In this document: positions 211-25,166 of the stretch, one piece after another
Layout: each line of letters opens with the position of its first letter
How positions within the stretch are numbered: the first letter of the stretch is position 1
The notes under the pieces: generated by a model
What the model was told of the DNA's origin: nothing
Databases searched by the model: none
What the model saw: only the letters and a program-made list of their open reading frames with translations
From: a virus
DNA: 38,390 nucleotides
Virus record (IMG/VR): IMGVR_UViG_3300037090_000061
Coordinates: 1 to 38,390 of that record
Strand: one strand, 5' to 3'
Made by a program: the position numbers and the translations under genes

Positions 211-257
211 TAAAAGCCACAATAAGTGGCTTAATTTAGCAATGCTTAATTATATCA
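211..257 (-). promoter_or_regulatory. Composite element, copy 1: extended -10, TAAATTA motif, hairpin with T-run
   Basis: On the minus strand TGATATAAT (257-249) is a perfect extended -10. It is followed after 17 bases by a hairpin with arms AAGCCAC and GTGGCTT, then TTTTATTG and the AGGAG of the Pro/Gln-rich gene. The motif just before the stem reads GCTAAATTAA. Five other gaps hold the same arrangement. The T-run after the stem could also terminate transcripts coming from the M23 gene. Confidence 0.6.
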
Positions 258-258
258 T

Positions 259-858
259 CTAAGCAGTCGGGATTCCTAAAGACTGCATCATTTGAAGATA
301 TTCAGGTGAATAGGTGTTTTGAATTGGAGGTAATGGTTGACGTAGATTCTGAGCCAAACGTGAAGGGGCGGGACTATTAACTCCCACTGAGGCCATATTA
401 CTTCCGGGTATAGTTTGTCCGGTGGGTGTAGCTCCTAGCGGGCCTACGGGTTTACCTGAAGCATCGGTGGTTATATCAAGATGTGCGCCTGTAGTATTAC
501 CTGATCCTGGTTGGCCGGGAACTCCACCTGTGTAGGCGATAATGGTTCCGGCTTTAACTAAACCCTTCTGTTCGGGGGTCATCTGGGAAAGATGAGATAA
601 ATAGGTAATTTCTCCAGTCTTAGGGTCTTGCAAAGCAACTCTATTACCAAAGCCAGACTTATCGTAACCTTCAGAAACAAAGTTATAGTCTTGGGGAAGT
701 TTAATGGGAGTACCAGCAGGAATACCGAAATCATAACCTTGGTGATAGGAATAATACTTTTGCATATCAGGAGAAGCGGGGCCGGGAGATTGAGTAAGTT
801 TACCTTGTCCTGCCAGCCATTGGGAGTTGAGTTGTCTAGCCTGTTCTTCTGGATCCAT
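259..858 (-). CDS. M23-family (LytM-like) peptidase domain protein
   Basis: A 199-residue protein with the M23 zinc-peptidase fold signature. Residues 39-52 read HQGYDFGIPAGTPI, giving the first His (H39) and Asp (D43) ligands, H89 lies in YLSHL, and the last motif is GAHLDI at 125-129. In active M23 enzymes that last motif is HxH; here the second His is Asp (D128), so zinc binding may be altered or lost. No signal peptide is visible and the C-terminal 50 residues are Pro-rich. The gene follows an internal virion protein gene, which fits a virion-associated cell-wall enzyme or a structural relic more than a free endolysin, since a separate GH25 lysozyme is present. The fold is fairly sure; activity is not. 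Confidence 0.75.
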   Translation of the reverse strand: MDPEEQARQLNSQWLAGQGKLTQSPGPASPDMQKYYSYHQGYDFGIPAGTPIKLPQDYNFVSEGYDKSGFGNRVALQDPKTGEITYLSHLSQMTPEQKGLVKAGTIIAYTGGVPGQPGSGNTTGAHLDITTDASGKPVGPLGATPTGQTIPGSNMASVGVNSPAPSRLAQNLRQPLPPIQNTYSPEYLQMMQSLGIPTA

Positions 859-895
859 AGTTTGCCGCTTGACTAACTGGTGTATACTGCTAGTT

Positions 896-1090
896 ATGAT
901 TGAACTTGCAGCAACTTTAATTGTTTTATATTTCTCTTTTTATATTCTTATGTTTTTAATTGGTATTGGTGGTTATTTATTGATTGGGGCGGGAGTCTTT
1001 TCATCTTGGTTATGGAGTAAACATAAAACCATTTTCTGGATAGTGTCTTTTTATCTTTTTATGGTTTTATTGATTAAAATAATTGGTTAA
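896..1090 (+). CDS. Small two-helix membrane protein, only likely rightward gene
   Basis: A 64-residue reading frame from ATG 896. It has two long hydrophobic segments (about 4-32 and 45-63) separated by a basic turn (WLWSKHKTI). TATACT (883-888) ends seven bases before the ATG and there is no Shine-Dalgarno sequence, so a leaderless start is possible. An in-frame TTG lies farther upstream at 827 but would add Cys-rich sequence that overlaps the M23 start. The gene diverges from the M23 gene and its stop overlaps the end of the convergent 698-residue gene by four bases. A membrane role such as holin, antiholin or superinfection exclusion is conceivable but only guessed. The strand is T-rich, which by itself favours hydrophobic translations, so the gene is not certain. 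Confidence 0.5.
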   Translation: MIELAATLIVLYFSFYILMFLIGIGGYLLIGAGVFSSWLWSKHKTIFWIVSFYLFMVLLIKIIG

Positions 1091-3183
1091 TGATATTTCT
1101 TTTTAGTCGTATCTCTTAAGTATTTCTCTTGTGCTGCTCTAGATTTAACCGCTGCGGTAACATCTTCAGCAGATGGAGGATTAGATACTGGACTAAAGTT
1201 ACCTTGACCATATCTTAAATCTCTAACTAAACGACCTTGTTGAGCTGGTCCTTTGCTATTATAAGCACCTGCAGGAATATCGGGAGGCAGGGGTTGTCTA
1301 GTCATCGTATTAACGGGTATTGTTTCAGTCGGGACTAAACTGGCTGAAGAGGCTGCTGTGGGTGCAGTAATAGGCGGTAAAACATCAGGACTTAAAGCGG
1401 CTCCGACATTATATAATCCCTGATTAACTAACCCTGCGATATTACTGCCAATCTTTGCTACACCCCCGGTAAATCTGCGGGGAGATTGCATACCCTGTAA
1501 CCCACTTGGATCGCTTAAAATATCTTCTGAATAAGTTTTTAGAGCGTGATAATCTCTTAAATAAGGAATAGCCCCTTTTACTTTTAGAGCTAAATAATTA
1601 CGAGAATATCTAGCCATTTCAGTAGTTATGTCTTTACCAATAGGTCCATAGGTGGGTGAGTTAAAAGCCTTTGGGCCATAATCCATAGCGTTAGTTTTAA
1701 TAGCGTTTATATCAGCAGCTGATAAATAACGACTTCCAGTATTTAGACTGTAGTCCCCATAATTGTAAACATCCCTAATTAGATTTGAGATTGCTTCTTC
1801 TTGACCAGGAAATCTCTTTAATAAATAGCTTTTCATATTATTAGTAAATTCACTAGTTTGAGCAATTTGAGCATAAGCTGGATCTTTTAAGACATTCCCC
1901 AATTTAATCCCTGTTTCAGTTAAAGCCTTATCGGTTGCTAGTATTTTTCCCTTAGTTGTTAGTTGGCCGGGAATATCATTTTTTAGCAACACTTTAGACA
2001 TGGTGCTAGCTTGATCCATATTGTTTGTTTGTTCTATAAATTCTTTAGTTCCACCCCCACTAACTAATTCTTGAGAATTTTCCGCTGCTTTTTTAAGAAA
2101 GTTTCCTGTCCCTTTGACCGGACTCTTAACAATTTCAGGCAGAGTTCCCTTAACTTCAGGTCCAACTTTAGAAAATAGACTTAAATCCATTAAAGTCTGA
2201 ACTGGCTTTTCGTAGGCCCTCTGTCCGGCTCTTTCTAAGAAATTTCCCCCTTTTAATGGTTCACCAACTGCTTGATTCAATTCACTCAATAATCCGATGG
2301 CTAAATTCTTAACGATACCCGGCATACTAATATCTTGGCTTAATTGTTGAAGTTTTTTACCCGTAGGATCAGCGGCAGCATCTTGGACCCTAGTTATGTA
2401 ATCACCTGGCATTTTAGCAATAGTACTTAACATTTCTCCGGTATTATTGATGGCATTGACTCCCAATCCTCCCACAAATCCTTCAACTGGACCGACTGGT
2501 GATTGATCGGTTGATGCTGGCCCAGTGCCGTTTTTGGCTGCCATAAAGTTACCTATTCCCTGATCTATTGATTGGAATATGTTTTGAGATTTATTTTGTT
2601 GAGATTGTGTTTGGGGTATTTCCGGTAATGTCTGACCGGCCAATCCAGCAGTTTGATTTATTTCAGCTTTAATCTTGTCTTTTTGGCCCTGGTCCACACT
2701 ATAGGTGATTTTGGGTAATTCTCCGGTTAATTTTCCTTTTAAAGCTGAAAGCCAACCCGGCCCTTGAACATTCATTGGTATTTGAGATTGAGGGGGAGCT
2801 AGTTTATTGTAATCTGCAGCCGCCGCATCTAAATCGTTCTGGTCACCACTAATCATGGCATCGTTAACTCTTTTGGCTGCTTGCGCCCTAAGAGTAAATT
2901 CGGCAGTCTGAGTTTGTTCTTGAGGTGTTTGTACTTTTAACTGAGGATTGGATAGTTGTTGCTGACGGGTAGCTAGATCGGGAGCAATTTGGGTATCAGA
3001 TAAACCCTGACCTTTAAGAGTGGAATAAGCTCCGGCATTAGCCTGATCCTGAACGTATTTGAGTTGTTCTTCATAATTTGAGGGAGTGGCAATCCCGTAT
3101 CTTGAGAGGTCCTGTGGATAGACATCTTTTATATTTCCTTGACCGTCATCTATCTCATACATTCCATTTGGTTTTAACCCCAT
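1087..3183 (-). CDS. Large internal or structural virion protein, unrecognised
   Basis: A 698-residue protein starting at ATG 3183 with GGGAGG just upstream. The N-terminal 200 residues are Gln/Asn/Ala-rich and predicted helical (DLATRQQQL, TPQEQTQTAE), the middle is helix-rich with repeated Gly turns, and the C-terminus is Pro/Ser-rich, ending in basic residues (TKKKYH). No enzymatic motif is seen. It is paired with another Gln-rich protein (3193-3942) between tail genes and the M23 peptidase gene. In short-tailed phages that position usually holds internal or ejection proteins that leave the head with the DNA, and this is the favoured role by position and composition only. Confidence 0.6.
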   Translation of the reverse strand: MGLKPNGMYEIDDGQGNIKDVYPQDLSRYGIATPSNYEEQLKYVQDQANAGAYSTLKGQGLSDTQIAPDLATRQQQLSNPQLKVQTPQEQTQTAEFTLRAQAAKRVNDAMISGDQNDLDAAAADYNKLAPPQSQIPMNVQGPGWLSALKGKLTGELPKITYSVDQGQKDKIKAEINQTAGLAGQTLPEIPQTQSQQNKSQNIFQSIDQGIGNFMAAKNGTGPASTDQSPVGPVEGFVGGLGVNAINNTGEMLSTIAKMPGDYITRVQDAAADPTGKKLQQLSQDISMPGIVKNLAIGLLSELNQAVGEPLKGGNFLERAGQRAYEKPVQTLMDLSLFSKVGPEVKGTLPEIVKSPVKGTGNFLKKAAENSQELVSGGGTKEFIEQTNNMDQASTMSKVLLKNDIPGQLTTKGKILATDKALTETGIKLGNVLKDPAYAQIAQTSEFTNNMKSYLLKRFPGQEEAISNLIRDVYNYGDYSLNTGSRYLSAADINAIKTNAMDYGPKAFNSPTYGPIGKDITTEMARYSRNYLALKVKGAIPYLRDYHALKTYSEDILSDPSGLQGMQSPRRFTGGVAKIGSNIAGLVNQGLYNVGAALSPDVLPPITAPTAASSASLVPTETIPVNTMTRQPLPPDIPAGAYNSKGPAQQGRLVRDLRYGQGNFSPVSNPPSAEDVTAAVKSRAAQEKYLRDTTKKKYH

Positions 3184-3192
3184 AATCCTCCC

Positions 3193-3942
3193 TTATGTTA
3201 TGTGAGCACCATTGCCGGAACCGACAAACGTCCTGGTTGAGGCATCAAAGATAAGTCCATTCCCAGCCGGAATATATGACTTACTGGAAGTGTAGTATTG
3301 AGCTTGGGCTTGGGCTAGAGGACTATTGAGTTGCTGTTCACTTATGGCTAATTGGTTGGCTCTATCAGCCTCAGCCGTACTTAATTGAACCCCAGCTTGC
3401 ATCTTTGCTAATAAAGTGTTCAGTTCGTTGGTATTCTGTTGAGATTGTAAACTAACACCATAGCCTTGTTGCTGTCCTAACAAAGTAGACTCCATTGAGT
3501 ATGGTTGAAGTTCTTTCTGTTGCTGTTGTTGTTCCAAACCTAACTGAGTAGAGACCAGATTTTGCGCATTTTGAGCCTGTGTGGTAGCTCTTTCGGCTAA
3601 CGGAGATAGTTTAGCCTGTTGGTAACCAACACCTCTATCTAACTGATTCTGGCTCATTTCCTCGCCTCTTGCGGCATTTAATTGGGTGTAGGGTATCTGG
3701 GAAACGGTATCATTTAATTGATTGGCATTTGCCTGCAAAGTGGGGAGATTGTATTGTTGACCAATTGAACCATACAGCGAGGTTAAAGTCGGTTGGCTAT
3801 TTATAGCTCCAGTGTAACGTCCTAAAAGATCAGCATTTTGCTGTTTGTAGGAATTTAAAAGATCAGTATTCCCTTGACTTTGGGAATTAAGTGTCCCTGA
3901 AGTGTCCGGTAAGCCATTCATTGAATCTTGTACTGAAGACAT
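3193..3942 (-). CDS. Gln-rich helical virion protein, likely ejection/internal protein
   Basis: A 249-residue protein, about one fifth Gln, with a long helical central part (roughly 60-210) that contains a QQQQQ run. The short C-terminal tail (GNGLIFDASTRTFVG) looks like a beta-hairpin. Motifs such as LYGSIGQQYNLP and LDRGVGYQQAKLSPLAERAT recall small internal virion proteins of podoviruses, from memory and not from a search. The start at 3942 has AAGGAT about ten bases upstream and follows composite element copy 2. Its stop is ten bases before the start of the 698-residue gene, so the two are probably co-transcribed. Confidence 0.6.
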   Translation of the reverse strand: MSSVQDSMNGLPDTSGTLNSQSQGNTDLLNSYKQQNADLLGRYTGAINSQPTLTSLYGSIGQQYNLPTLQANANQLNDTVSQIPYTQLNAARGEEMSQNQLDRGVGYQQAKLSPLAERATTQAQNAQNLVSTQLGLEQQQQQKELQPYSMESTLLGQQQGYGVSLQSQQNTNELNTLLAKMQAGVQLSTAEADRANQLAISEQQLNSPLAQAQAQYYTSSKSYIPAGNGLIFDASTRTFVGSGNGAHIT

Positions 3943-3963
3943 AGTATTTAATCCTTATACTAA

Positions 3964-4015
3964 AAATCCCGTCATCTCTGGCGGGCTTAAATTAGCTCTT
4001 TGGTATATTTTAGCA
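3964..4015 (-). promoter_or_regulatory. Composite element, copy 2: extended -10, TAATTTA motif, hairpin with T5
   Basis: Minus strand: TGCTAAAAT (4015-4007), 19 bases ending in GCTAATTTAA, then a stem with arms CCCGCCA and TGACGGG (one mismatch), then TTTTTA and AAGGAT before the Gln-rich gene. The five-T run makes this copy a credible intrinsic terminator as well as a 5-prime hairpin. Confidence 0.6.
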
Positions 4016-4039
4016 TAGTTTAGATCTCGTAGTTAATTT

Positions 4040-4693
4040 CTAGGACGCTTGATAACTTAAACTAATACAGATATTGTCAGTAGTTGCCCAAGTCCATGGA
4101 GAGGTGGGGGTTATAGTCATAAGTTTAACCGTTGATCCACTTGGACCAAATTGGTAAATCGTAATGCCATTATCAACCACTCCCTCGTAATAGCCCACAC
4201 CGTGCTGAAGAAAAATAGCCTTACCGCAAGGCATAATTGAAGCAGTGGAGGCTGCCGCTACTGGAGGAGTTATTACAGGATTTGTCCCCATAGAACTTCC
4301 GCTACCAAATACAAAAGAAACCTGTACAAAAATAATCTTACCAATCTGGCAATAAAATCCCGTGTTAGTTCCATTGCCTACCGTTAAATTTGTCCATGAT
4401 GGGTTAAATGATGTCCAGTTATAGGATGGAATTGATGCTGGAGTCCCCCAGGTTGGTACTCCCCCAACCATAGTCAAAACCTGATTGGCTGTACCCACTG
4501 GAAGTCTGGTGAAGTTAGTCCCATCGGAATAGTAAAGATCTCCAGCCGAACCGTTCACGTATAAGTGTCTGGGTTTAATCGCCGCAGGTAGAATATCAGC
4601 CTGACTGATACGCTTAAATTGGTCAGTGGGTTGATCTAAAGGTGTGACTTCAGTCCCAAAGGTGGGGTTAACTTCAATCGGTTTATCAGCCAT
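4040..4693 (-). CDS. Tail fibre/receptor-binding-like protein
   Basis: A 217-residue protein. Residues 40-80 (KPRHLYVNGSAGDLYYSDGTNFTRLP, then GTANQVLTMVGGVPTWGTP) match the style of phage tail-fibre stalk modules, in which a GDLYYSDGTN strand leads to a GTxxQVLT turn. The C-terminal 120 residues are beta-rich (GFYCQIGKIIFVQVSF) and may be the receptor-binding head. The start at 4693 has AGGAG three bases upstream and sits directly behind the nozzle/adhesin gene, so the two may form one receptor-binding apparatus. The family call is by motif style only. Confidence 0.65.
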   Translation of the reverse strand: MADKPIEVNPTFGTEVTPLDQPTDQFKRISQADILPAAIKPRHLYVNGSAGDLYYSDGTNFTRLPVGTANQVLTMVGGVPTWGTPASIPSYNWTSFNPSWTNLTVGNGTNTGFYCQIGKIIFVQVSFVFGSGSSMGTNPVITPPVAAASTASIMPCGKAIFLQHGVGYYEGVVDNGITIYQFGPSGSTVKLMTITPTSPWTWATTDNICISLSYQAS

Positions 4694-4699
4694 ATTCTC

Positions 4700-7600
4700 C
4701 TAAATTTGGTTTTCTTCTCGAGCGTCCTCTACCTGACCCGCAACGGCCAATAGAGCTTGGGAAGTAGTAGTGGTACAACCAAAATCTATACCTAATTTGT
4801 ATTCAAAGAATCTACCACCCATAACTTCAACCCGTGAACTCCGACTGCCTACAGTTGAGTCAGTTGCAGATACCCATGATCCGTCATCTATTTGATATTT
4901 AGGAGTCATCGTCTGGCCTGATATAAGAGGATGATATTGAGCTTTTACTCTTTGCAGAACTTTATCCTTATAAACTCTCCCGGCATCATCGGTCATAAAT
5001 TCGATGGTTGCGGTCGTGTAAGGGGGATTAGTCTGATCGACCTCATCCATGCCACTTGAGACATTATCTTTCCAGCCTATCAAGAGTTTACCGTTAAAGG
5101 ACATTAAGAGACCTATTTTAGCTAGATTAGTTCGGGTTCCGGTAGAAATCACATGGTCAAATCCTAGAGATTCTGGGTAAGAAGGATTCAGTGATCCATA
5201 AACATAAACACCTTGCTCTACCGTACTTGAGGTAGATGGACCCGTACCTGTATGTAGGAGGGCATGGTACATGGTCATCGCTCCGGGCATGATCTCAATC
5301 GTGGTTCCGGGGTCGAGTTTGGGTAGGTTGCGAACTTTAGAAGCTGTCGCATCACCGGCGTATCTCATGTGTTGACCTCTAGCCCCGGCGTAGAAGTCAA
5401 TAATTCCTTTAGATCCAAGCATGGCATCAATCGCCCCTTCAGGTACGTCAATAAAGAAGTTGTATTGATCTGAGATCCCGTCCCAGAAGAAGATACGTCC
5501 GTTTTCAATTGTAGTTATATTTGGTCCCCGTTGACAGCCTACCGCTAAATACTCATTCCACAGGGTAGCGCATCTGGCAGTCCACTCTCCCGGGAGAATT
5601 ATTCTATTTGGATCGTAAGCAATCAGATCCCATTTACCGATGTATTTGTCGTTTAAGATAACTAGGAAGTTCTGGAACCTAATCATCTGGTGGTAATCCG
5701 TCCGGGTAACTAGGTAAGAGAAATAAGTATTGTAAGTGACTGTTGAAAGATCTGAGGTCGTACCTGTCGTCACGGTTCCATCAGCTACCGTACTTGTGAG
5801 GTGGAAATGGTACTGCGCTCCCCCACCCGCTAGTTGTGGCCGCCAAGGGCTAGAAAAGACGAATTCTACCAGTTGTGCGCTTCCTGGGAGGTTAGCGTTT
5901 GTGATAGTCTTGGTTGCCATTACCTGATGGGTTGAATTGTGTACGGTTAAAGTCCAGTCTCCGGTTCCTTTAGTCGCTAGTTTAACGTCTATAGACTTTT
6001 GAGGATCTTTAGTAGGAGTGAAAGTAACCGTATTGGAGGCTGATTCGGTAATTGAAGTGGGTACGGTAAAAGTCTGTCCGGTTAAGGCTTGGGATTGATC
6101 CACGTCGAATCTCCCGTTAGGTGCGGTAAAAGGTACGTCAGTTGAGTAAGTACAAGACGAGTTAGTTAGATCGTTAGCGTTGGAGGTTAGATCAGTGACA
6201 GCGTTGTTGAGTTTGTAGTAGGCTACTAGACCGACTTCATTCCCGATAAGCTGGACATCCTTATAACCGATTAGATTAGCCTGAGAACGGACTGCCGACC
6301 AAACCCTCACGTCGTCCATTAAACCATTGTAAAAGTTTACTGCCGTTCCTGCTCCATCCTTACTGGTAGCTAGGAAGAATTGTGAGGCGTTGTCACTGAT
6401 TGCTGTCAGAGTCCCGACTGAGGTTCCAATACTTATACCATTAACGTAGAAGTTGGCCGTTGAGGTTGAAGCTGTCCAAGTTACGGCACAGTGTTGCCAT
6501 TGGGAAATAGCAATAGAATCCGCCTGTTTAATCAGTTCATCATAAGCTGTGCCGTTAGTCGATACATCTAAATAAAGTTGATTGACTGAGCCGTTGGCTA
6601 GGTTATTATCTTGAGCGTAAGTGATTGTTGGAGTGGTCGTTCCTGTATAGGAAGTGTAGTAATCGATATGGATGCGGCCAGTTCCCCCAGCACCGCCATA
6701 ATGAGCGGCTTGCTGAGACGAGTTGGTTCCGTACCCACCCGATCCTCCAGAAGCGGTTATAAGATTAGTTCCTAAAGTAGCCGTTTGACATTTCAAAAGA
6801 ACTGAGCCTCCAGCTCCTCCACCACCGCCACCTGTTTCTCCTACAAATAAAGATGTATTTTGACCATTTTCACCCGCTGAAACTATATTTGAACCAGCGA
6901 TAATAACGGCTGAAATAAAGATTATCCCTCCTCCGGTTCCTCCTCTAGCCCCACTGTTTGAGGCTCCAGCTCCTCCCCCTCCCCCTCCAGATCCCATAAA
7001 AAGAGTGGTTAAATCAGAAGTTCCGCAAGTTGACCCTCCGACCGGTTCACCTAACTGATTGTTTGCACCGACAGATCCATAGCCCCCGCCTCCACCGCCA
7101 CTAGGATTACCGGCTGGAGTTCCAGCCCCACCACCACCGCCGCTTCCACCAGAAGCATGATATGCACTAGAGCTAAAGTTTCCAGATCTTGATCCGGTAT
7201 TTCCCTCACCGTAACCTCCGTCTCTTGACCCTCCCCCAACTCCGGCCACACCGTAAAGATAACCACATCCTGAAGCTGACAAATTACCCGTTACCGTAAC
7301 TGTTCCATTCGCTAAGAAGGCCAATATGCCCCCGACTGTTCCATTCCAAGCCTTAGCAGTGTAGGTTTTACCAGAGTTGATTGTGACATTAGTGTATTGT
7401 TTTAAGACCCTGACTTGCGCTCCGGTTCCGTAAGTTGCATTAAGAGGTTGATCTACAGTCACGGTTCCTGCCGTATAACCTACAATCTTGTTTCTCATCC
7501 AAGTACCAGCTCCGGTTCCCTGGCTCTGGTGAATTAAGATAACTTGTCCAGAGGCAAAGGAGACATTGGTAGCCGTAAGAGTAGTTGTGTTTATGGTTCC

Positions 7601-8329: not shown

Positions 8330-8330
8330 A

Positions 8331-9269: not shown

Positions 9270-9287
9270 AGTGCCTCCTTAAACAAG

Positions 9288-9337
9288 AAGCGACCCCAGA
9301 TAGGATCGCTTAAAGTAGCTATATTGCTATTTTACCA
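9288..9337 (-). promoter_or_regulatory. Composite element, copy 3: extended -10, TACTTTA motif, hairpin
   Basis: Minus strand: TGGTAAAAT (9337-9329), 18 bases ending in GCTACTTTAA, then a stem with arms AAGCGA and TCGCTT around a loop that includes TCCTATCTGGGG, then the AGGAGG of the adaptor gene. The loop core is shared with copy 4. Confidence 0.6.
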
Positions 9338-9340
9338 CAG

Positions 9341-9520
9341 TTACTTGGACTCTAGTTTATCCAGATGCTCCAACACGACTACCATAATCCTAGCAAGAGT
9401 CTTCATGTCAATGTTACCGGTCTCGTTCAATTCCTTGAAAGTAGACTTAAAACCATTCTCCGGAATTAAGTAACCGACTATCTGCGAGACTTCATGTCTC
9501 AGATCGTTAGTGTCAATCAT
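9341..9520 (-). CDS. Small helical protein, unknown
   Basis: A 59-residue reading frame (MIDTNDLRHEV...HLDKLESK), predicted all-helical. Its ATG overlaps the last codons of the upstream 241-residue gene (stop at 9513), which suggests translational coupling. It is followed directly by composite element copy 3 and sits between minor head genes and the adaptor gene. A minor head or assembly role is possible; no family recognised. Confidence 0.6.
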   Translation of the reverse strand: MIDTNDLRHEVSQIVGYLIPENGFKSTFKELNETGNIDMKTLARIMVVVLEHLDKLESK

Positions 9521-10238: not shown

Positions 10239-10240
10239 AG

Positions 10241-10414: not shown

Positions 10415-10415
10415 A

Positions 10416-11214: not shown

Positions 11215-11221
11215 TACCATT

Positions 11222-11929: not shown

Positions 11930-11932
11930 ATT

Positions 11933-13606: not shown

Positions 13607-13614
13607 AAACTCCT

Positions 13615-14151
13615 TTATTTAGGCGTGACGGTGGCATCAGCACTAAGAGGCATCCATCTCAAGAAGAATGTCATTGCTCCTGAAGTGGGATTGTCGGTCG
13701 TTGCGTAGTGATATTCAATGGTATTGTTGGTAAGTGTCGTTTTATTTCCGATAATAATTGGGGTAAACCACATCATCTGGGTAGCCGCCGGTTCCGCAAT
13801 AAACCCAACAGCGGCACTCTTAGCAGTTAAAGCCGTTGCCACCAATCCGCCCTTATAGATCATTGATCCAGCCTTGTAAGTTGAAATGTCTGCCCCACCA
13901 ACTGCCGTTAAATAAACTTGGGCTGTCTGGTCGTTAATCCTCCAGCTAGAGGCAGTATGGTTAGCTCCTAAATCGGTAGTTACGATCCCCCACAATCCTC
14001 TTATCTCAAGTACTCCGGTAAAACCGAAAATGGGTACGTTGACAGTGGCAGCCGCCCCAGTAAATATCTGACTATCAGTAGAAATAACCCCGTCAGTCGT
14101 AATTGGAACACGATTACTATCTCTTGAGAATGAACCTGAAGTAGTTGGCAT
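13615..14151 (-). CDS. Structural virion protein with RDxNRxP N-terminus
   Basis: A 178-residue beta-rich protein. The N-terminal segment SRDSNRVPITTDGVISTD parallels the start of the fibrous protein that follows, so both may dock through the same anchor. The rest (VPIFGFTGVLEIRGLW, MMWFTPIIIGNKTTL) looks like a compact beta sandwich. The start at 14151 has AGGAG five bases upstream and follows composite element copy 4. Likely a head decoration or fibre-attachment protein; family not identified. Confidence 0.6.
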   Translation of the reverse strand: MPTTSGSFSRDSNRVPITTDGVISTDSQIFTGAAATVNVPIFGFTGVLEIRGLWGIVTTDLGANHTASSWRINDQTAQVYLTAVGGADISTYKAGSMIYKGGLVATALTAKSAAVGFIAEPAATQMMWFTPIIIGNKTTLTNNTIEYHYATTDNPTSGAMTFFLRWMPLSADATVTPK

Positions 14152-14172
14152 AATTTCTCCTTATACAATAAA

Positions 14173-14216
14173 GCCCCCAGATAGGAGGCCTAAATTAGCG
14201 ATACCTCATTTTACCA
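14173..14216 (-). promoter_or_regulatory. Composite element, copy 4: extended -10, TAATTTA motif, hairpin
   Basis: Minus strand: TGGTAAAAT (14216-14208) overlaps the last codons of the methyltransferase gene, then come 17 bases ending in GCTAATTTAG and a stem with arms GCCTCC and GGGGGC around TATCT, then CTTTATTG and AGGAG of the next gene. Confidence 0.6.
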
Positions 14217-14793
14217 TATTTTTACGCAAGATGACTTGGTATCCCAAAGCCAAGAGTTCGTAATCACGGCAAAAACAATTTATAAAGGCATCTATGGCCG
14301 GTTTAGGAGTAATGGGATTGCTCTCTAACCTCGTCCATAAATAGTCGTCAAAGATAATCACCCCTCCTGGTTTAAGAATAATATGGGCTTGAACTGAATC
14401 AATTAAACAATCGGAGGCGAAGTGTCCGGCGTCAACATAAATAAGGTCGGCTAATTCGGTTCTTTTCTTTAAGTAAGTGAAAGTGGTTTCCTGGTGAACT
14501 CTAACCCTATCCTTAAAAGGCTCTATATTGTGCAGAAAGTTAGTCTTGCCCCCGTTCCAGTCAATTATCTTGTTGTAACGGTCGTCATTGATCCCGCCCT
14601 CCCAAGTATCCACACAGTCAATCGTACTCTTAGGATGAGTTAGTAAGTTTTCCAGCATCCAGACGGTTGATCTACCCTCAAAAGCACCCAACTCAATCGC
14701 ATGAGTTTCCCTATCCTTAAACAGGGGGATTAACACCTTCTCCCAGGTGGGTATCTCTACCGTCGTCCAGTCTTGAGTATATTTGTATTCCAT
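14206..14793 (-). CDS. Class I SAM-dependent methyltransferase
   Basis: A 195-residue Rossmann-type methyltransferase. Motif I is at 33-42 (IELGAFEGRS) for S-adenosylmethionine binding, a second-strand acid region is IDCVDTW (58-63), LADLIYVDAGH (115-123) is the motif IV strand, and LKPGGVIIFDDY (140-151) is the motif VI hairpin. This layout is that of the Methyltransf_24-type family, whose members often act on sugars or small molecules. It starts one base after the glycosyltransferase stop, so the pair is likely co-expressed and may modify the same glycan, perhaps one attached to virion proteins; the target is inference. Confidence 0.8.
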   Translation of the reverse strand: MEYKYTQDWTTVEIPTWEKVLIPLFKDRETHAIELGAFEGRSTVWMLENLLTHPKSTIDCVDTWEGGINDDRYNKIIDWNGGKTNFLHNIEPFKDRVRVHQETTFTYLKKRTELADLIYVDAGHFASDCLIDSVQAHIILKPGGVIIFDDYLWTRLESNPITPKPAIDAFINCFCRDYELLALGYQVILRKNMVK

Positions 14794-14794
14794 A

Positions 14795-15406
14795 TCAATA
14801 AACTTGAGTTCCTTTATGGCCCAATTGGATGGTGGGTGAACAATAGACCTCTATTCCTACTTTGTGGCATTTAGCGCAGAATTCTATATCTTCAGTGTGG
14901 TGTTCTCCATTAGGTTCCTCATAGGCTACAAACCAGGGAGCCTCTACCTTTTCAAAGACGGTCATTTTGATTAGTAAGAATCCGGTCGCTATGCCAAACA
15001 CCGGGAATAGTTGAGCGGAGAATTCCGACTGCACAAATTTACCCTTATCTGGATCAGTGGAAGGGTCAACTAACTTAAGTGTGGAGATAATAGGTTGTCC
15101 GGGTACGCCTCTGGCATTGTAGTTAGCCCCTACTACGTCTTTATCGTGGTCTATAAGCCTTTGGATAGCTGATGGTTGGAAGATCATATCCGCATCAATA
15201 AACATTAAGTGGGTAGAGCCGTTCTTTTGGGCAACCCTAACCAATTCATTGCGGTTGTGTGCCACGTAACCACCAATTTGCAAGGAAAGATTAACCCCGA
15301 TACCGTGGCCCTTAATAACCTCTAATGCTCCAAATAAGGAAGTGACTGTCTCCGATTGAACCACTCCACCCGTACAAAGTCCAACCGTTAAATTGATTGC
15401 AGTCAT
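14795..15406 (-). CDS. GT-A-type glycosyltransferase (family 2-like)
   Basis: A 203-residue protein from ATG 15406. MTAINLTVGLCTGG forms the first nucleotide-sugar strand, FIDADMIF (69-76) carries the metal-binding DxD (D71, D73), and TEDIEFCAKCHKVG (171-184) gives the acceptor-side acidic pair. It lacks a membrane anchor, so it probably acts in the cytoplasm during assembly. An in-frame TTG at 15433 would put the start inside a hairpin and I reject it. ATG 15406 has no Shine-Dalgarno sequence but lies six bases after TATAAT, as expected for a leaderless message. Sugar and acceptor cannot be told from sequence. Confidence 0.8.
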   Translation of the reverse strand: MTAINLTVGLCTGGVVQSETVTSLFGALEVIKGHGIGVNLSLQIGGYVAHNRNELVRVAQKNGSTHLMFIDADMIFQPSAIQRLIDHDKDVVGANYNARGVPGQPIISTLKLVDPSTDPDKGKFVQSEFSAQLFPVFGIATGFLLIKMTVFEKVEAPWFVAYEEPNGEHHTEDIEFCAKCHKVGIEVYCSPTIQLGHKGTQVY

Positions 15407-15421
15407 GAGGATATTATAGCA
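15407..15421 (-). promoter_or_regulatory. Extended -10 promoter, TGCTATAAT-N6-ATG, putatively leaderless
   Basis: TGCTATAAT (15421-15413) is a perfect extended -10. Six bases later comes the glycosyltransferase ATG, where transcription should start. It directly follows a terminator hairpin, so the two signals separate transcription units. Confidence 0.6.
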
Positions 15422-15446
15422 GAAAACCTCCAATAAAGGAGGTTTT
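15422..15446 (-). terminator. Intrinsic terminator hairpin
   Basis: A perfect nine-base-pair stem (AAAACCTCC / GGAGGTTTT) with a TTTATT-type loop. It is symmetrical enough to work on both strands. It sits after the 220-residue structural gene and just before the promoter of the glycosyltransferase gene. Confidence 0.7.
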
Positions 15447-15471
15447 ATGCTGTTAAGCCAGAAGCATGATT

Positions 15472-16134: not shown

Positions 16135-16160
16135 AAAATCTCCTTAATATTTCTCTCCCT

Positions 16161-16231
16161 CGTAGTCATTAGCTCTAGGTCAAGAGTGAGACTAATTGCC
16201 TCATTGCCGCCCCCATACGGATGGGAGCAGC
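16161..16231 (-). promoter_or_regulatory. Two hairpins in the leader of the head-fibre-like gene
   Basis: The 106-base gap 16135-16240 holds an 11-base-pair stem (16206-16216 with 16221-16231, two G-U pairs in the RNA) and a second stem-loop with ATTAG/CTAAT and CTC/GAG arms (about 16166-16195). Neither has a T-run, so they look more like RNA-stability or processing structures than terminators. I see no convincing -10 box here. Confidence 0.4.
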
Positions 16232-16240
16232 GTGAACTAA

Positions 16241-16993
16241 TTAGTCAATTGTTAATTGAACACTGATAGCGTGACTCGAGTTAGCACCCGACATACTGAA
16301 CCCGATGTAGGTTCTGGCGCTTCCAGCGACAAACACACCAACCGCACCAGCAGTCGCAACTGAGGGGCCGACTAATGAACCAACCAAAAAGGTTGAACCA
16401 TCAGAGAGCGCACCGCAGACACCTTTAGTCTGTAACCAACCATAGTTGGCTGCAGGGATAGGTGAGATTGCGATACCGACTGGAGTACCGGTAGCAGCAC
16501 CACCAGTACCTTGAATGACACCATAGTAGGGACTTTTACGAAGAGCCACCGTGGTCGTAGCCGTGGTTAAGGCGGTACGAAGAGGCGCATCTAAGTAAAC
16601 GGTCAGGGAAGCTGCACCAGAAGCAGTGGAGTGATCGATGATCGTGTATTCCTCACCAATGTTAGCCGAAGCCGTACTGGAAGTAGAGACTACAAACGAG
16701 CCTCCGACTAACATTCCAGCGGTAACAGCAGTATTACCATTGGTCAGAACTACTTTGGTATCCCCTTTAGCGGCGGCAGTCGCAACTGCTAAGCCATCAA
16801 AGTCAGTAATAGTGGTGTTGGCACTAGACTGAATCGCGTTACCAACCACTAAAGTTGGAGTGGCGTTATAGCAAAATCTAAACGCTTTACCCGAATCACC
16901 GAACATCAGTTGACCAACATCCGTTACAGCGACAGTGCCGTAGGAATAAGGATCAAACTGGCTGATTATTGGGTTTGCAGAAATTGAAGCCAT
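16241..16993 (-). CDS. Head decoration/stabilising protein, putative
   Basis: A 250-residue beta-rich protein encoded directly after the major capsid gene (24-base gap). It contains GTVAVTDVGQLMFGDSGKAFRFCYN near the N-terminus, VTAGMLVGGSFVV in the middle, and a C-terminal strand-turn series (AVGVFVAGSARTYIGFSMSG). Genes in this place often encode capsid cement or auxiliary proteins. The start at 16993 has AAAGGA upstream. No catalytic motif; the role comes from position and composition. Confidence 0.6.
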   Translation of the reverse strand: MASISANPIISQFDPYSYGTVAVTDVGQLMFGDSGKAFRFCYNATPTLVVGNAIQSSANTTITDFDGLAVATAAAKGDTKVVLTNGNTAVTAGMLVGGSFVVSTSSTASANIGEEYTIIDHSTASGAASLTVYLDAPLRTALTTATTTVALRKSPYYGVIQGTGGAATGTPVGIAISPIPAANYGWLQTKGVCGALSDGSTFLVGSLVGPSVATAGAVGVFVAGSARTYIGFSMSGANSSHAISVQLTID

Positions 16994-17017
16994 ATATTTT
17001 CCTTTCTAATTATTTAA

Positions 17018-18112
17018 TTAAACGGTCGATACTCCTGTACCGCGACCTTGTCGTCTAAATTGAGATCCGCAGTATTGACCGATATAGAAGATCCGACCAA
17101 TTTGACCTGCTTGGTTAGGCAACATCATGTTGGGCATGAAGAACCAACCCTTAGCGGAAGGCATTTCGGCTTTACCGACACCTTCGTAAGTGGAGAATTC
17201 ACTCATGTCAACCTTCTCAATTTTGCCTTTGTATTTCAGAGGCACAACTGTCCGGCCACGAACCTCTTGATAGCGTTCGTTTAACATGAACCAGTTACCT
17301 GCAGTGCAGCGGTCATCTTTAAGAACGGGTTTACCTCTCCAAGATAGAGCGGTGAAACCTAACGCACCAGCTAATTCGACTGGTTTAACAATATCATTCC
17401 CCCGTAAGGAAACTTTATTGTAACCGATTGAACCGTAATCAGCCCGAACCTGGGGAGATAAGAGCTGCTCGTACAAGGACCAGACCGTTTTGGTGGTGAG
17501 GTTCAAGTTGGGTTGTTCGTTGTCTAACCCGACCGCAGAGATCGTATCTTCCAAGGTAGCCATTTTGGCTAGAGTTAAAGCGGTACTCCAAGAAGTACGG
17601 GTACTCTTTAACACGGTGTAGGTGTTGCGGGATTGGCCGCCGATGGTCGCTACATCAGTTGCATCATCGACTAAAGCTCCAAGACCAAGAATTTGATTGG
17701 CTGCGCCTGTCGAATAGACAGCATCACCAATCTTCTGTCCGGCTTCAGCAATCGCTTCCTCGTATTTGAAGGTATCAATGTCAATCGTTCCTTCAGGACC
17801 GGCATTAGCGAAAGATTCAAGCATGATTGAAACGACTGGTTGAGTAAACGCATTGTGGGCATAACTCAAAGTAACGGTCGTATCCGAAGCGGAAGTGGTT
17901 AAGGTCTCTAGACCTGTAAACCATTCTCCGCCACCTGCTGAAGTAACTTTGACCGTATAATCATAAGTCTTCCCGGTCATCTCTTTAGCCATACCCATTA
18001 CCCGAGCGGCATAGGTATTGCCTGTCAAAATGTTATCCACAACTTTAGCGTAGAGTTTACGTTCGGTAAAGTTGTCTACACGATTTGTAAACTGTACTCC
18101 GGAGTAGCTCAT
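17018..18112 (-). CDS. Major capsid protein (HK97-fold type, by context)
   Basis: A 364-residue protein, a usual size for podoviral coat proteins. The N-terminal helix (RKLYAKVVDNILTGNTYAARVM) precedes an E-loop-like beta section (KTYDYTVKVTSAGGGEWFTG). The central helix region (YEEAIAEAGQKIGDAVYST) would be the spine helix, and the C-terminal part (YKGKIEKVDMSEFSTYEG, FFMPNMMLPNQAGQIG) would be P- and A-domain strands. It follows the scaffold gene, as expected, but with an endonuclease gene in between. Its ATG overlaps the stop of that gene (ATGA), with AAGGA six bases upstream, so its translation may depend on reading through the endonuclease frame. Confidence 0.85.
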   Translation of the reverse strand: MSYSGVQFTNRVDNFTERKLYAKVVDNILTGNTYAARVMGMAKEMTGKTYDYTVKVTSAGGGEWFTGLETLTTSASDTTVTLSYAHNAFTQPVVSIMLESFANAGPEGTIDIDTFKYEEAIAEAGQKIGDAVYSTGAANQILGLGALVDDATDVATIGGQSRNTYTVLKSTRTSWSTALTLAKMATLEDTISAVGLDNEQPNLNLTTKTVWSLYEQLLSPQVRADYGSIGYNKVSLRGNDIVKPVELAGALGFTALSWRGKPVLKDDRCTAGNWFMLNERYQEVRGRTVVPLKYKGKIEKVDMSEFSTYEGVGKAEMPSAKGWFFMPNMMLPNQAGQIGRIFYIGQYCGSQFRRQGRGTGVSTV

Positions 18113-18663
18113 AGTATCCTTTCATTTTTATGGAGGTTATGTCCCCATGCCTTTATATTTTTGGGCATTGGCCTTCCATAAGTAATTTTATAATGACACT
18201 CTTGGCAAAGAGTTCGACAATTATTTATGTCGAATCTACCTTCAACATATTCTGACCATGGTTGGATGTGATCTACTTGCAAACATCCATTATGTTGACC
18301 GCAGATTTGACAGGAATAGTTATCCCTTTCAAATACTAATTTCTGTATATCTCTCTTGAATCGACATCTTTGTAGACGATCTTCTTTAGTTCTTCCGTCG
18401 ATATAAGCTGGACAGTTCCTACCAGATCTTGGATACTTACGATAATATTCATCAGTACAAGATCGAGAGCAGAATCTATTTGGTTTATAAAAGTGCTTGT
18501 TGTAAAACTGTTTTCCGCAAATTTCGCAAGTTCCTATCCTATTACCCGGATCTTTTATTAGACTAAGTCTCCAACACTCTCTTGAACAAAACTTAGGATC
18601 AGGTCTAACAGAGTATCTTCTTGCGCTAAATTGCTTCTTACAGTGTTTACAAACTACTTGCAT
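18109..18663 (-). CDS. HNH endonuclease with two N-terminal zinc knuckles
   Basis: A 184-residue protein. Two treble-clef-like zinc modules come first (C5, C8, C26, C30 and C46, C49, C65, C69, each with FCSRxC). A linker (NCPAYIDGRTKEDRL) follows, then a complete HNH domain at 112-160: C118/C121, D131-H132 as the catalytic DH, N147/N148, and C153/C156-H157. This is typical of free-standing phage homing endonucleases, which nick or cut near their own insertion site. It lies between scaffold and capsid genes, shares a promoter with the capsid gene, and overlaps its start. No Shine-Dalgarno sequence is seen at ATG 18663. Confidence 0.85.
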   Translation of the reverse strand: MQVVCKHCKKQFSARRYSVRPDPKFCSRECWRLSLIKDPGNRIGTCEICGKQFYNKHFYKPNRFCSRSCTDEYYRKYPRSGRNCPAYIDGRTKEDRLQRCRFKRDIQKLVFERDNYSCQICGQHNGCLQVDHIQPWSEYVEGRFDINNCRTLCQECHYKITYGRPMPKNIKAWGHNLHKNERIL

Positions 18664-18678
18664 ATATTTGTGACCAAC

Positions 18679-18735
18679 AAAAAACCCACCCGTTGCGGGG
18701 TGGGTCTAAACTGACCACTTTCGTCTATTTTACCA
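18679..18735 (-). promoter_or_regulatory. Composite element, copy 5: extended -10, CAGTTTA motif, strong hairpin with T6
   Basis: Minus strand: TGGTAAAAT (18735-18727), 20 bases ending in TCAGTTTAG, then an eight-base-pair GC-rich stem (ACCCACCC / GGGTGGGT) and TTTTTTG. As a terminator this is the best of the six, and it would insulate the capsid unit from the scaffold unit. If the -10 box is used, its own transcript would have to pass this hairpin to reach the endonuclease and capsid genes. Confidence 0.65.
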
Positions 18736-18739
18736 CAAA

Positions 18740-19564
18740 CTATTGTTCTCTAACAATATCCTCGATTCCTTGTTTGTGGAATTCAGTGTAAGGAACCTTC
18801 TCTGCCGTGTTGGAGGCTCCACCATGAGTCACTCCAGTCACCGGAGCGTTGTAACCTGCTGGTTGCTCATTAGGGGCTTTGAAGTGTTCGTAGAAGATCT
18901 CTTTTAAATTAGAGATAGCATCCAGACCTTTAGTCTGACGATCCTGGTTGACTTCCATCATCGTTTTAAAGAGTTCAACTCTAAACTGTTTACCCTCATC
19001 GTGAGGATAATCTTCTTCTTTACCATTAACCATTACTTTAATTACTTCATTGTCTTCAGGATCAACCGTCGGTATCTTACCAGCCTTAGTCAATTCCCCA
19101 ATCTGGGTATCCCAATACTTGTTGATATTTGTAGTAAAGTTCTTCTGGGTTTCTTCCTGAGTCTTGGCTTGTTCTTGTTCGGCTTTCTCAGACTCGGCCA
19201 GGTCGTTCTTGATCTTCTCGTGAGTCTTTTCAGCCGTATAGTCTAGGGCTTCTTGCCAGGTGGGTTGTCTTCCTTCTTTACCCCAAGGGGTATCGTCTAC
19301 CTTCTCTTCTTTATTCAACCCAAACGCTGTAGAAAGTTTACCCACCATTTCCTGAGACATCTTTTCAGTTTGGGTAGAGACCTCAGTTTTAAGCGCAGCA
19401 ATCTCAGCCTTAAGTGCTTCCACATCTTCATGGGATTCAGGTTTCTCTTCTACTTTGGGTTCTTCCTTAGGCTCCTCTTTTGGCTCTTCCTTAACCTCTT
19501 CTTTGACCGCTTCAGCTACAACATCCTCTAAATCCTCAGTGTGCAGGTCTTTTTTCTTAGCCAT
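18740..19564 (-). CDS. Scaffolding protein
   Basis: A 274-residue, highly charged and helical protein. The N-terminus has a Lys/Glu/Pro repeat (KEEPKEEPKEEPK, about 24-40), then a coiled coil (VEALKAEIAALKTEVSTQTEKM), and helical segments rich in Glu/Gln/Lys (KIKNDLAESEKAEQEQAKTQ). It ends in a short basic-acidic helix. Composition, size and place between portal and capsid genes are those of phage scaffold proteins, which organise coat subunits and leave before or during packaging. No protease domain is seen and no separate protease gene is recognised, so the scaffold may exit intact. Confidence 0.8.
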   Translation of the reverse strand: MAKKKDLHTEDLEDVVAEAVKEEVKEEPKEEPKEEPKVEEKPESHEDVEALKAEIAALKTEVSTQTEKMSQEMVGKLSTAFGLNKEEKVDDTPWGKEGRQPTWQEALDYTAEKTHEKIKNDLAESEKAEQEQAKTQEETQKNFTTNINKYWDTQIGELTKAGKIPTVDPEDNEVIKVMVNGKEEDYPHDEGKQFRVELFKTMMEVNQDRQTKGLDAISNLKEIFYEHFKAPNEQPAGYNAPVTGVTHGGASNTAEKVPYTEFHKQGIEDIVREQ

Positions 19565-19572
19565 ATATCCTT

Positions 19573-19597
19573 TCGCTAAATTGCGATAATTTTACTA
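19573..19597 (-). promoter_or_regulatory. Degenerate relative of the composite element
   Basis: Minus strand TAGTAAAAT (19597-19589) followed closely by TCGCAATTTAGCGA, a four-base-pair stem that contains the AATTTA motif in its loop, then AAAGGAT before the scaffold ATG. It keeps the parts of the six-copy element but lacks the TG of the extended -10 and the normal spacing. Confidence 0.35.
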
Positions 19598-19600
19598 AAC

Positions 19601-19795
19601 TTATTCTTCTTTAGATTCAGACTTCTTGTCTTTGGCATCCTCTTTATCCTTACCTTTACCTTTTTCGTTCGCATATCTCGCAGCGATTGCACGTTGGGCC
19701 ATTTCCTTAGAATCTGACTTACCGACGACTTTACCGGAGTCTTTCTTAGTAATAGCGGTTTTACCGTTAGGTAGTGTCTTTAAACTGTATGGCAT
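19601..19795 (-). CDS. Small basic head-region protein
   Basis: A 64-residue protein. The first 40 residues (MPYSLKTLPNGKTAITKKDSGKVVGKS) form a short beta-hairpin domain followed by a helix (KEMAQRAIAARYANEKG), and the tail is a Lys/Glu/Asp repeat. Very similar small proteins are common near portal genes of phages, from memory, and their role is not established. AGGAG lies six bases before ATG 19795. It lies between portal and scaffold genes. Confidence 0.65.
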   Translation of the reverse strand: MPYSLKTLPNGKTAITKKDSGKVVGKSDSKEMAQRAIAARYANEKGKGKDKEDAKDKKSESKEE

Positions 19796-19821
19796 AATAT
19801 CTCCTTTAATATGAATACATT

Positions 19822-21828
19822 TTACACCAATGAGTTACTGGGTTGAGGTGGTAGAACATTTACTTGAGCGGTGTTACCCGGTTGGGGATTGCCTGTAATT
19901 GGCCCTGCTGCTTGAGGATTAGGAGGCGCAAACTGAGCTGCTGGAGGCGCACCGGGGACAGGGGCTTGACCTGGGGGTAGACCGGGTTGAGCGGGTTGCT
20001 GAGCTAAGGCTCCGGCCATTGCGTTAGTATCCTGTAAACCCATAGCGTACTTAGCCATGTATCCTTGGGGGTCAGACATAAATGTAAGCAGTTTCTCAGT
20101 CCTACCCTGGGGATCGGATACGCCGAGATCTTTATAAAAAGTGAGGGGATCAATCATCTTAAGTTTAGCCATGTCAATCGCTTGCTGTTTGGCCTTCACT
20201 TTATCTGTCCCTGAAGCTGTAATAACTACTTCCATGCCATCATCTACCATATCCCGATTTAATCTAGTAAATATAGTCTCTCCATTTGGACCCATCGTCT
20301 TTTTAAACTTATCCTCGGTATATCTTAATTTAATAAACTGTAAGATCCATTCAGCCATCCTTCTAGAGGCGTTGTTGATAGTTTCCTCTGTTAAGTCATC
20401 AGCCCGAGTAAAGTCACCCTCACGACTTAGTTGATTGTTAGTAGCCACTTCTGATGAGGGTTGACCCCTAACTGTCCCGTTGACACCCATCTTAGCGAAT
20501 AGGCGTTGTTCAGAGAGAGCTAGGTCATTAAAGGCTTGACTAGAAGGTTGCTCACCGGGAATGAACGAGTGGACATTATTCACGTTACCTTCGACTACCA
20601 TATCGGCATCGGGATCGGTCATGTCTAGTTCTTCAATGTCTTCTGTTTTAAGACCTGAATCAGTCGAGAAGATGTGTTTACCTCTAGCCCTGTCCAGCAT
20701 TTCACTGATCTGACGACCTCGTTTATCATGCTCTTCTTGTAAAGGGATAGCTTGTTCAACAATTGAAGTCTCATCCAGAGGTTGTTTGCCCCATTGATCG
20801 TAACCCATGAAAATATACGGTTTGGAGGGATGGTCAAAGTAGTTATAAAAGACTTTCTCAGTCGGGATCGGTTGGCCGGTAGCGATAGCCAGTCTCACAC
20901 TTAATTCATCGACGTTACCTTTAATCTTAGTCTGTCCTTCCCAGTCGTAGTTAGGATCTTTAATCTTGTCAAAGACAAAGTCTTTATACAACCACCCAAC
21001 ACAGGCCTGACGTTCAAAGGTGGATTCGCCATTCTCTTTGGTCTGCTCTAAATGGTCAAACCAGATCTCAGTAATCTTAACTTTAGTATTCATCCCGGCT
21101 TCGTTGTTCTCGTTCTTACCCCCATCGTCAAAGACACCATATCTTCGGAGCGCAGCGTAGAGTTTCTGTTCTTTCTTAGGGAACATCATCACTAACTCTT
21201 TAACGGAATAGTTAGGCACATACTCAGCAATAAACTGCATATGATCGGGATCTAGATCGGGTGAGGTGTAGTCTAAAACTAGGTTCTCAGGGAATACCCA
21301 TCTAAAGTTATAATCTCCAATTACCGGATCCCAATAGGGCTTAATCGCACCCAATAACAGAACTTGGAGGTGTTTAAAAGACATCCCCAGAACCTTACGA
21401 CGTTCGGCCTTCTTAATATCCGAATCTATATATTTGGAAAGCATCTCTGAGGTGTCTTTAGATTGAGGATTGTCCGAACCAGGAGAGGTGATAATATCCG
21501 GCATCTGACTTAAAGCGATAGGTTTAAGATAAGCGATAGCTTCGTATAAGAGATTATCTTGGAACCTGGACTCATACTCTTTTAACTTACGCTCCCTTAA
21601 CTGCTTGCCAAAGAAGTAAGACCACATCTTCTCCCGGCGTTCTTTCAAACTATATTCTTTGTTGTAGAAGGTTTCGGAGTCTTTAATTAGCTTGTTAGCA
21701 GTTCTGGCAAAGGTGTCATCTGAAAGAGAGATTGATAGTCCATCCCGTTTCTCAATAACAGAGTTCTCTGGTCTAACCTCTTGTCCAATCGTTTTATTGT
21801 ATGCGTCAGTGAAGGAATTATCGGACAT
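19822..21828 (-). CDS. Portal protein (podoviral type)
   Basis: A 668-residue protein. The N-terminal 120 residues are helical and charged (YSLKERREKMWSYFFGK), and the middle has portal-like wing and stem segments (YNFRWVFPENLVLDY, QACVGWLYKDFVFD). A clip/stem helix region at about 430-500 includes QRLFAKMGVNGTVRGQPSSEV and ADDLTEETINNASRRMAEWILQF. The last 65 residues are Pro/Gln-rich and probably disordered. It forms the dodecameric DNA channel at one capsid vertex and binds the terminase. It follows the terminase and zinc-ribbon genes in usual order, starts at 21828 with GGAG upstream, and is preceded by composite element copy 6. Confidence 0.85.
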   Translation of the reverse strand: MSDNSFTDAYNKTIGQEVRPENSVIEKRDGLSISLSDDTFARTANKLIKDSETFYNKEYSLKERREKMWSYFFGKQLRERKLKEYESRFQDNLLYEAIAYLKPIALSQMPDIITSPGSDNPQSKDTSEMLSKYIDSDIKKAERRKVLGMSFKHLQVLLLGAIKPYWDPVIGDYNFRWVFPENLVLDYTSPDLDPDHMQFIAEYVPNYSVKELVMMFPKKEQKLYAALRRYGVFDDGGKNENNEAGMNTKVKITEIWFDHLEQTKENGESTFERQACVGWLYKDFVFDKIKDPNYDWEGQTKIKGNVDELSVRLAIATGQPIPTEKVFYNYFDHPSKPYIFMGYDQWGKQPLDETSIVEQAIPLQEEHDKRGRQISEMLDRARGKHIFSTDSGLKTEDIEELDMTDPDADMVVEGNVNNVHSFIPGEQPSSQAFNDLALSEQRLFAKMGVNGTVRGQPSSEVATNNQLSREGDFTRADDLTEETINNASRRMAEWILQFIKLRYTEDKFKKTMGPNGETIFTRLNRDMVDDGMEVVITASGTDKVKAKQQAIDMAKLKMIDPLTFYKDLGVSDPQGRTEKLLTFMSDPQGYMAKYAMGLQDTNAMAGALAQQPAQPGLPPGQAPVPGAPPAAQFAPPNPQAAGPITGNPQPGNTAQVNVLPPQPSNSLV

Positions 21829-21848
21829 TTAACTCCAGATACTATAAT

Positions 21849-21895
21849 GCCACCCGATTAGGAGTGGCTAAATTACCGTTCTTTCAATTTTACCA
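21849..21895 (-). promoter_or_regulatory. Composite element, copy 6: extended -10, TAATTTA motif, hairpin
   Basis: Minus strand: TGGTAAAAT (21895-21887) within the last codons of the zinc-ribbon gene, 18 bases ending in GGTAATTTAG (which includes that gene's stop codon), then a stem with arms GCCAC and GTGGC and the portal Shine-Dalgarno. There is no T-run, so this copy is unlikely to terminate transcription. Confidence 0.55.
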
Positions 21896-25125: not shown

Positions 25126-25166
25126 GGATTCTCCTTTTAGCTTGCTGTTCAATTATACTCGGGTCT

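Follow-up and report, generated by a model that had tools for sequence, protein, structure and literature searches.

The window studied here, a viral DNA of 38,390 bases that makes up the whole of IMG/VR record IMGVR_UViG_3300037090_000061, carries nearly all of its genes on the minus strand. No near DNA match was found for it among 50,697 phage records. Matches to PHROG families identify genes for the major capsid protein (MCP), the portal protein and the large terminase subunit, and further matches were obtained for GroEL, GroES, RNA ligase, NinG/Rap and endolysin. An earlier note on this DNA had reported six minus-strand gaps that share the same ordered parts (extended -10 box, TAATTTA-like motif, hairpin and ribosome binding site), and all six are present as described. 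Here we characterize the element in these gaps, a promoter followed by two competing hairpins, and propose that it probably attenuates transcription of late operons.

In each copy, the -10 box is followed by three strands, A, B and C, which are predicted to form two hairpins (Table 1). A and B form a mini-hairpin of 3-4 bp with a loop of 5-6 nt, which precedes a terminator hairpin, B:C; a U-rich tract normally comes after B:C. Because strand B is the 3' arm of A:B and also the 5' arm of B:C, the two hairpins are mutually exclusive. Judged by its sequence, the element has the anatomy of a transcription attenuator, beginning about 1-5 nt after the predicted 5' end of the transcript. The TAATTTA-like motif of the earlier note is therefore real, but it is the hexaloop and flanks of A:B, a hairpin that precedes and overlaps the one noted, which is B:C. 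The note had missed A:B and the two-state switch that it creates, as well as the loop signature within each genome and the terminator-less type of site at groES and scaffold genes described below. It had found T-runs in copies 1, 2 and 5; these exist, but copies 3 and 4 are also T-rich (in copies 1-5, 5-7 of the 8 bases that follow the stem are T), and only copy 6 (ATTATAGT) is poor, as had been stated. A seventh relative at 19573-19597 was likewise correctly located, but is not merely degenerate, being a perfect TCGC(AATTTA)GCGA hairpin of a type that recurs at the scaffold genes of relatives.

The -10 box alone is not improbable, since the window contains 6 occurrences of TGNTAAAAT, 5 of them at the copy sites, when shuffled sequences lead one to expect 2.7; what is improbable is the ordered combination of parts. 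Complete leaders of the window copies have better folds than the majority of their shuffled versions (z -1.2 to -3.8). When hairpins carrying any of the four loops observed in the window (own-loop hairpins; at least 3 bp, score at least 7) were counted over its whole length, 8 were found on the minus strand and none on the plus strand, compared with 2.7 in shuffles, of which 3 of 200 reached 8. All 8 lie directly after -10 boxes (spacing 2-20), near late promoters.

Table 1. Sites of the element, and genes used in its analysis, in the 38,390-base window. Loops are in parentheses.
Feature	Position	Strand	Gene or match	-10 box	A:B hairpin	B:C hairpin	Tail or remark
Copy 1	211-257	minus	before window-end gene 1-220 (family 15)	TGATATAAT, 249-257	GCT(AAATTA)AGC, 229-240	216-230	TTTTATTG
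Copy 2	3958-4015	minus	before gene 3193-3942 (family 11)	TGCTAAAAT, 4007-4015	GCT(AATTTA)AGC, 3985-3996	3968-3985	ATTTTTAG
Copy 3	9281-9337	minus	before gene 8331-~9270 (family 4)	TGGTAAAAT, 9329-9337	GCT(ACTTTA)AGC, 9308-9319	9288-9311	interrupted, T-rich
Copy 4	14165-14216	minus	before gene 13615-14151 (family 19)	TGGTAAAAT, 14208-14216	GCT(AATTTA)GGC, 14188-14199	14172-14190	TTATTG
Copy 5	18675-18735	minus	before HNH gene 18109-18663 and MCP gene 17018-18112	TGGTAAAAT, 18727-18735	GGTC(AGTTTA)GACC, 18703-18716	18682-18706	TTTTTTG
Copy 6	21849-21895	minus	before portal gene 19822-21828	TGGTAAAAT, 21887-21895	GGT(AATTTA)GCC, 21866-21877	21849-21868	weak, ATTATAGT
Class II, scaffold	19573-19597	minus	before scaffold-like gene 18740-19564	-10-like TAGTAAAAT, 2 nt upstream	TCGC(AATTTA)GCGA, 19573-19586		no terminator
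Class II, groES	27552-27589	minus	start of groES gene 27250-27576	TATAAT, 27584-27589	CGG(AATTTA)CCG, 27552-27563		no terminator; hairpin in first codons
MCP	17018-18112	minus	PHROG 9953, E 5.5e-26				anchor for finding relatives
Portal protein	19822-21828	minus	PHROG 156				
Terminase large subunit	22137-23603	minus	PHROG 2				
Small zinc-ribbon protein, family 10	24808-25152	minus	between groEL and terminase genes				weak trans-factor candidate

Single-protein searches with the MCP or the family 4 protein recovered no relatives, but a terminase search gave 11, and an MCP alignment built from these recovered 106, of which 80 (IMG/VR loci) were kept. We examined the 150 bases before the MCP gene in the 80 loci and scanned the full records of 29 relatives. 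Before the MCP gene of most of the ∼80 relatives, TATAAT, ∼10 bases, A, 5-6 nt, B, C, a T-run and ATG follow one another in the same order, and in most of them B:C is followed by 6-7 T in 8 bases. The competing hairpin was evaluated in 60 MCP leaders whose terminators had been located without reference to A. An own A:B of at least 4 bp with a loop of 5-6 nt was present in 38, compared with a mean of 11.9 (sd 2.65, maximum 22 in 1000) when upstream parts were exchanged among leaders, and the excess was confined to loop lengths of 5 (16 vs 3.3) and 6 (17 vs 3.8).

A genome scan for structure only, without the -10 box and T-run, was not specific. A strict scan demanding -10, A:B, B:C and T-run found 113 elements in 32 records, compared with 16.6 per shuffled set, and the counts by loop length were 56 vs 2.8 for loops of 6 and 32 vs 4.8 for loops of 5. 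Elements were found at 8.7 per 100 kb in phages; over 440 kb from a patescibacterial metagenome-assembled genome (MAG) that holds one of the phages, the rate was 0.9, and all matches there looked like chance. Spacing from the -10 box to A was 7-11 in nearly all elements, and 71 of 93 had the TGn extension. Targets in relatives were the MCP, portal, family 4, family 11, family 15, family 16/19 and HNH genes, which is the set seen in the window. Among 44 hexaloop elements, a set chosen for pairing so that the paired percentage is inflated, 91% of cells were paired, compared with 51% in shuffled and 29-45% in slid alignments; the covariation score was 1.02 (0.22 shuffled, at most 0.12 slid), with 71 two-sided changes vs 19. 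The MCP-leader exchange is free of this bias. Accordingly, the parts of the element, their order and overlap, their covariation, the loop signature and the gene targets are features of the sequences themselves. The claim of the earlier note that stems vary while pairing is kept gains strong support from this covariation, and the outcome that it had named as damaging, relatives that keep the hairpins and lose the -10 box, was looked for, with the result that relatives keep both.

Loops were alike within a genome and different between genomes. The window and two relatives (G002, G003) have AATTTA, and others have ATTTTA (G016, G022, G029), ACACA (G018, G021), ACTATA (G004), ACATA (G023), AGAATA (G017), TCTAA (G026) or nnTTC (G013). 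The first loop position is A in 84 of 100 elements, and no common loop has G at position 4. Among pairs of elements with an A-stem identity of 50% or less, loop identity was 0.695 within genomes and 0.499 between them (difference 0.196, permutation sd 0.018). Stems within a genome show some resemblance too, so duplication plays a part. Even so, a conserved loop on a stem that varies with compensation fits an RNA-binding factor that reads the loop, while a DNA operator would leave the reverse pattern. At two sites of one genome (L148 7222 and L149 12185, both G021), pairing by the terminator extends to the ACACA loop, e.g., GACACACT..AGTGTGTC, so that the loop itself would be sequestered in the off state.

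The same loops occur in hairpins that lack a terminator, which we term class II. The groES site, the eighth in the window, has its hairpin 20 bases downstream of a TATAAT box. At the start of groES, own-loop hairpins without a terminator were found in 7 of 22 genomes, where foreign loops lead one to expect 0.16; for scaffold starts the figures were 8 of 27 and 0.25. The ATG often lies inside the hairpin. From their sequences, these sites would be compatible with a nut-like factor that acts processively or with an additional function in translation. Taken with the elements before late genes, they suggest a regulon comprising the late programme and groES.

We consider it probable that the elements are late-operon attenuators in which a phage-specific factor stabilizes A:B and lets RNA polymerase read through. 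Termination, antitermination, the factor and its timing are what we infer from the arrangement. Each late operon would begin at an extended -10 promoter, with transcription starting 1-5 nt before strand A. In the emerging RNA, A would pair with B into the small hairpin, until synthesis of strand C allows the far more stable B:C to displace A and, with the U-tract, to terminate transcription ∼40-50 nt from the start, keeping late genes off. Computed folding is consistent with this order of events: when truncated, the leaders of copies 1, 2, 3 and 6 adopt A:B, and when complete, leaders adopt the terminator. The median energies were -1.9 kcal/mol for A:B and -11.7 kcal/mol for B:C, so A:B should need help to win, and the unaided terminator should prevail. 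Later in infection, a phage-specific, most likely phage-encoded, RNA-binding protein that reads the loop would hold A:B, the terminator would lose its basal base pairs, and RNA polymerase would proceed into the capsid, portal and tail operons. This factor may also bind the terminator-less hairpins at groES and scaffold starts, where it would load on polymerase or control translation.

A candidate for such a factor is the family 10 zinc ribbon, present in all 32 genomes examined, although the case for it is weak. The TM7 phage, one of these, and the Manatee Spring phage carry family 10 and lack the attenuator element. When protein distance was compared with loop distance, family 10 had the highest partial correlation (0.33), but scaffold, family 12, family 8 and other proteins reached 0.26-0.29, so the signal is not specific. 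Family 10 has no Pfam or PDB relative, and AlphaFold models of family 10 (pLDDT 87.5) and family 8 (80.5) gave no PDB match below E 1. By MCP protein, the closest named phages are Manatee Spring (MW202566, 35%) and TM7 phage DolZOral124_53_65 (33%), both of which carry a chaperonin. MCP relatives also occur in MAG contigs assigned to Patescibacteria, Berkelbacteria, Brocadia, Scalindua and Terriglobia. The closest phages and the Patescibacteria and Berkelbacteria contigs suggest patescibacterial hosts; given that three other bins hold such contigs and that only 1 of 380 Patescibacteria genomes contains the MCP, such a host is probable only.

Several further features were observed near the elements. 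An HNH endonuclease gene separates the capsid leader (copy 5) from the MCP gene as an insertion and overlaps the start of the MCP gene by 4 bases. Methyltransferase-like and possibly glycosyltransferase-like genes lie within the structural region at 14206-15433, before copy 4. For the family 4 gene after copy 3, homology places the start near 9270, after an AAGGAGG Shine-Dalgarno sequence; no ATG, GTG or TTG is found there, and translation may begin at ACG (or ACT), or the base may be a sequencing error. In one relative (L022, G002), two attenuator-like A:B:C units stand in tandem upstream of a single capsid gene (MCP start 10001). Searches of Rfam 15 placed no family above its gathering cut-off on the element; the only match was a tRNA in L010, where the tRNA gene (3540-3611) lies between the terminase gene and the next gene, directly after a TGATATAAT promoter.

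Some results weigh against the attenuator proposal. In the window, the U-tract of copy 6 is poor, U-tracts are weaker than in relatives, and A:B and B:C of copy 2 overlap by 1 nt only. A few relatives (G006, G025) have no element or 2-bp versions, and the distance correlations singled out no specific phage protein as the trans-acting factor. In addition, with no terminator at the class II sites, the hairpin there must act differently or additionally. These sites, and the fact that transcripts from groES must pass the portal and MCP attenuators, would be accommodated if the mini-hairpin were a boxB-like loading site from which a factor rides polymerase through later terminators, the local overlap being secondary. 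N/boxB specificity is phage-specific, which the loops here resemble. Nothing requires a loading site to have its 3' strand in common with a terminator, yet A:B almost always has, and we judge nut-like processive antitermination unlikely, though deserving of attention.

The remaining alternatives leave more of the data unexplained. A switch without any factor, in which starts that omit part of A terminate and those that include A read through, by start choice, nucleotide level or pausing, could draw on the placement of A, a few bases at most from the predicted start, and on the tight -10 spacing of 7-11; it is very improbable, because it does not explain loops common within but not between phages, and A:B alone is too weak. 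We give marginally less credence still to hairpins that protect the 5' ends of late mRNAs, with T-runs that just end upstream transcripts. Their extreme 5' position suits such a role, and upstream transcripts do arrive at the hairpin, but transcripts begun at the promoter would be cut short by a terminator lying just downstream of it, most relatives have 6-7 T in 8 bases after B:C, and neither the competition from A:B nor the loop signature is accounted for. Among the roles offered in the earlier note, an attenuator or antitermination site is supported by the competing hairpin and by T-runs that are strong and conserved in relatives, while a pure stabilizing cap leaves the T-runs and the A:B/B:C overlap unexplained. 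A 4-6-4 dyad directly after the promoter, with about one helical turn between half-sites, could also be an operator, at about +1 to +15, for a dimeric DNA-binding regulator, but we find this scarcely credible, since half-sites that vary with compensation among copies of one genome around a conserved spacer are the opposite of an operator.

Local attenuation with a loop-reading factor may be extended to a fuller proposal: that a phage lineage, probably with patescibacterial hosts, governs its late programme with attenuators at the 5' ends of its transcripts, and that these respond to a phage-encoded antiterminator from an unknown family that has diverged in loop specificity from phage to phage. 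The switches would also mark terminator-less groES and scaffold genes. We see the chances of this proposal as evenly balanced. Such a phage would depend on local attenuation at each late promoter in place of a late sigma factor, a polymerase of its own or a single Q-type antiterminator. As far as the literature searched shows, the timing of late genes in phages of uncultured bacteria is undescribed. The element offers a compact switch and a testable regulon of at least 6 sites per genome, in which loop signatures should lead to the cognate regulator. If the proposal is true, these phages hold a natural series of orthogonal RNA-protein switches, ∼45 nt long and in many variants.

No published description of the element was found in the literature searched, which did not extend to subscription papers and preprints. 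The lambdoid N-boxB (nut) system is alike in having a small hairpin with a phage-specific loop in phage transcripts. However, loops here are A/U-rich ANN(N)UA (AATTTA, ATTTTA, ACACA, ATTTA, AATATA) and not GNRA-like, the element overlaps a terminator, and it is repeated at every late promoter, whereas nut consists of two early sites. A NusG-domain protein (PF02357), of the kind used in NusG/LoaP-type antitermination, was found in 0 of 26 phage genomes. The SAS/ESAS repeats of cluster K mycobacteriophages resemble the element in standing before many phage genes, and the same gene families in relatives, as inverted repeats with a phage-type-specific consensus. In SAS/ESAS, though, conservation lies in the 17-bp repeat arms and variation in the spacer (PMC3203893), while in the present element the arms vary and the loop is conserved, and no promoter-terminator switch has been described for SAS/ESAS.

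Closer parallels are found among attenuators, which are generally defined by mutually exclusive hairpins, one of them a T-run terminator, before the first codon; all of these are found in the element. The RAT of BglG, SacY and LicT is likewise a single protein-stabilized hairpin that partly overlaps a terminator, and overlap with the 5' arm of the terminator is seen here, but RAT is 29-30 nt long (quoted in PMC3369931), compared with 11-15 nt for A, loop and B in the phage element, and the CAT RNA-binding domain (PF03123) was found in 0 of 26 phage genomes. An ANTAR protein (PF03861) was equally absent from the 26, although one from the host could serve. ANTAR-target RNAs (EutV, NasR, AmiR) have two tandem stem-loops with hexaloops, with A1 and G4 in the loop, and a subset of putative targets is thought to act on translation (PMC3369931). 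The phage element, which has one hairpin at the 5' end of the transcript before phage late genes, leaves no room for the first hairpin of such a pair, as 7-11 nt separate the -10 box from A in most copies, and its A-NNN-UA loop lacks G at position 4 and may be a pentaloop. In both, a hexaloop mini-hairpin of ∼3 bp directly precedes an intrinsic terminator and overlaps it. The two also have in common loop bases that are recognized in ANTAR, several sites per regulon, and targets that are perhaps in part translational. By the tests made on these sequences, the element is a member of neither class, but the predicted switch would work like RAT and ANTAR antitermination.

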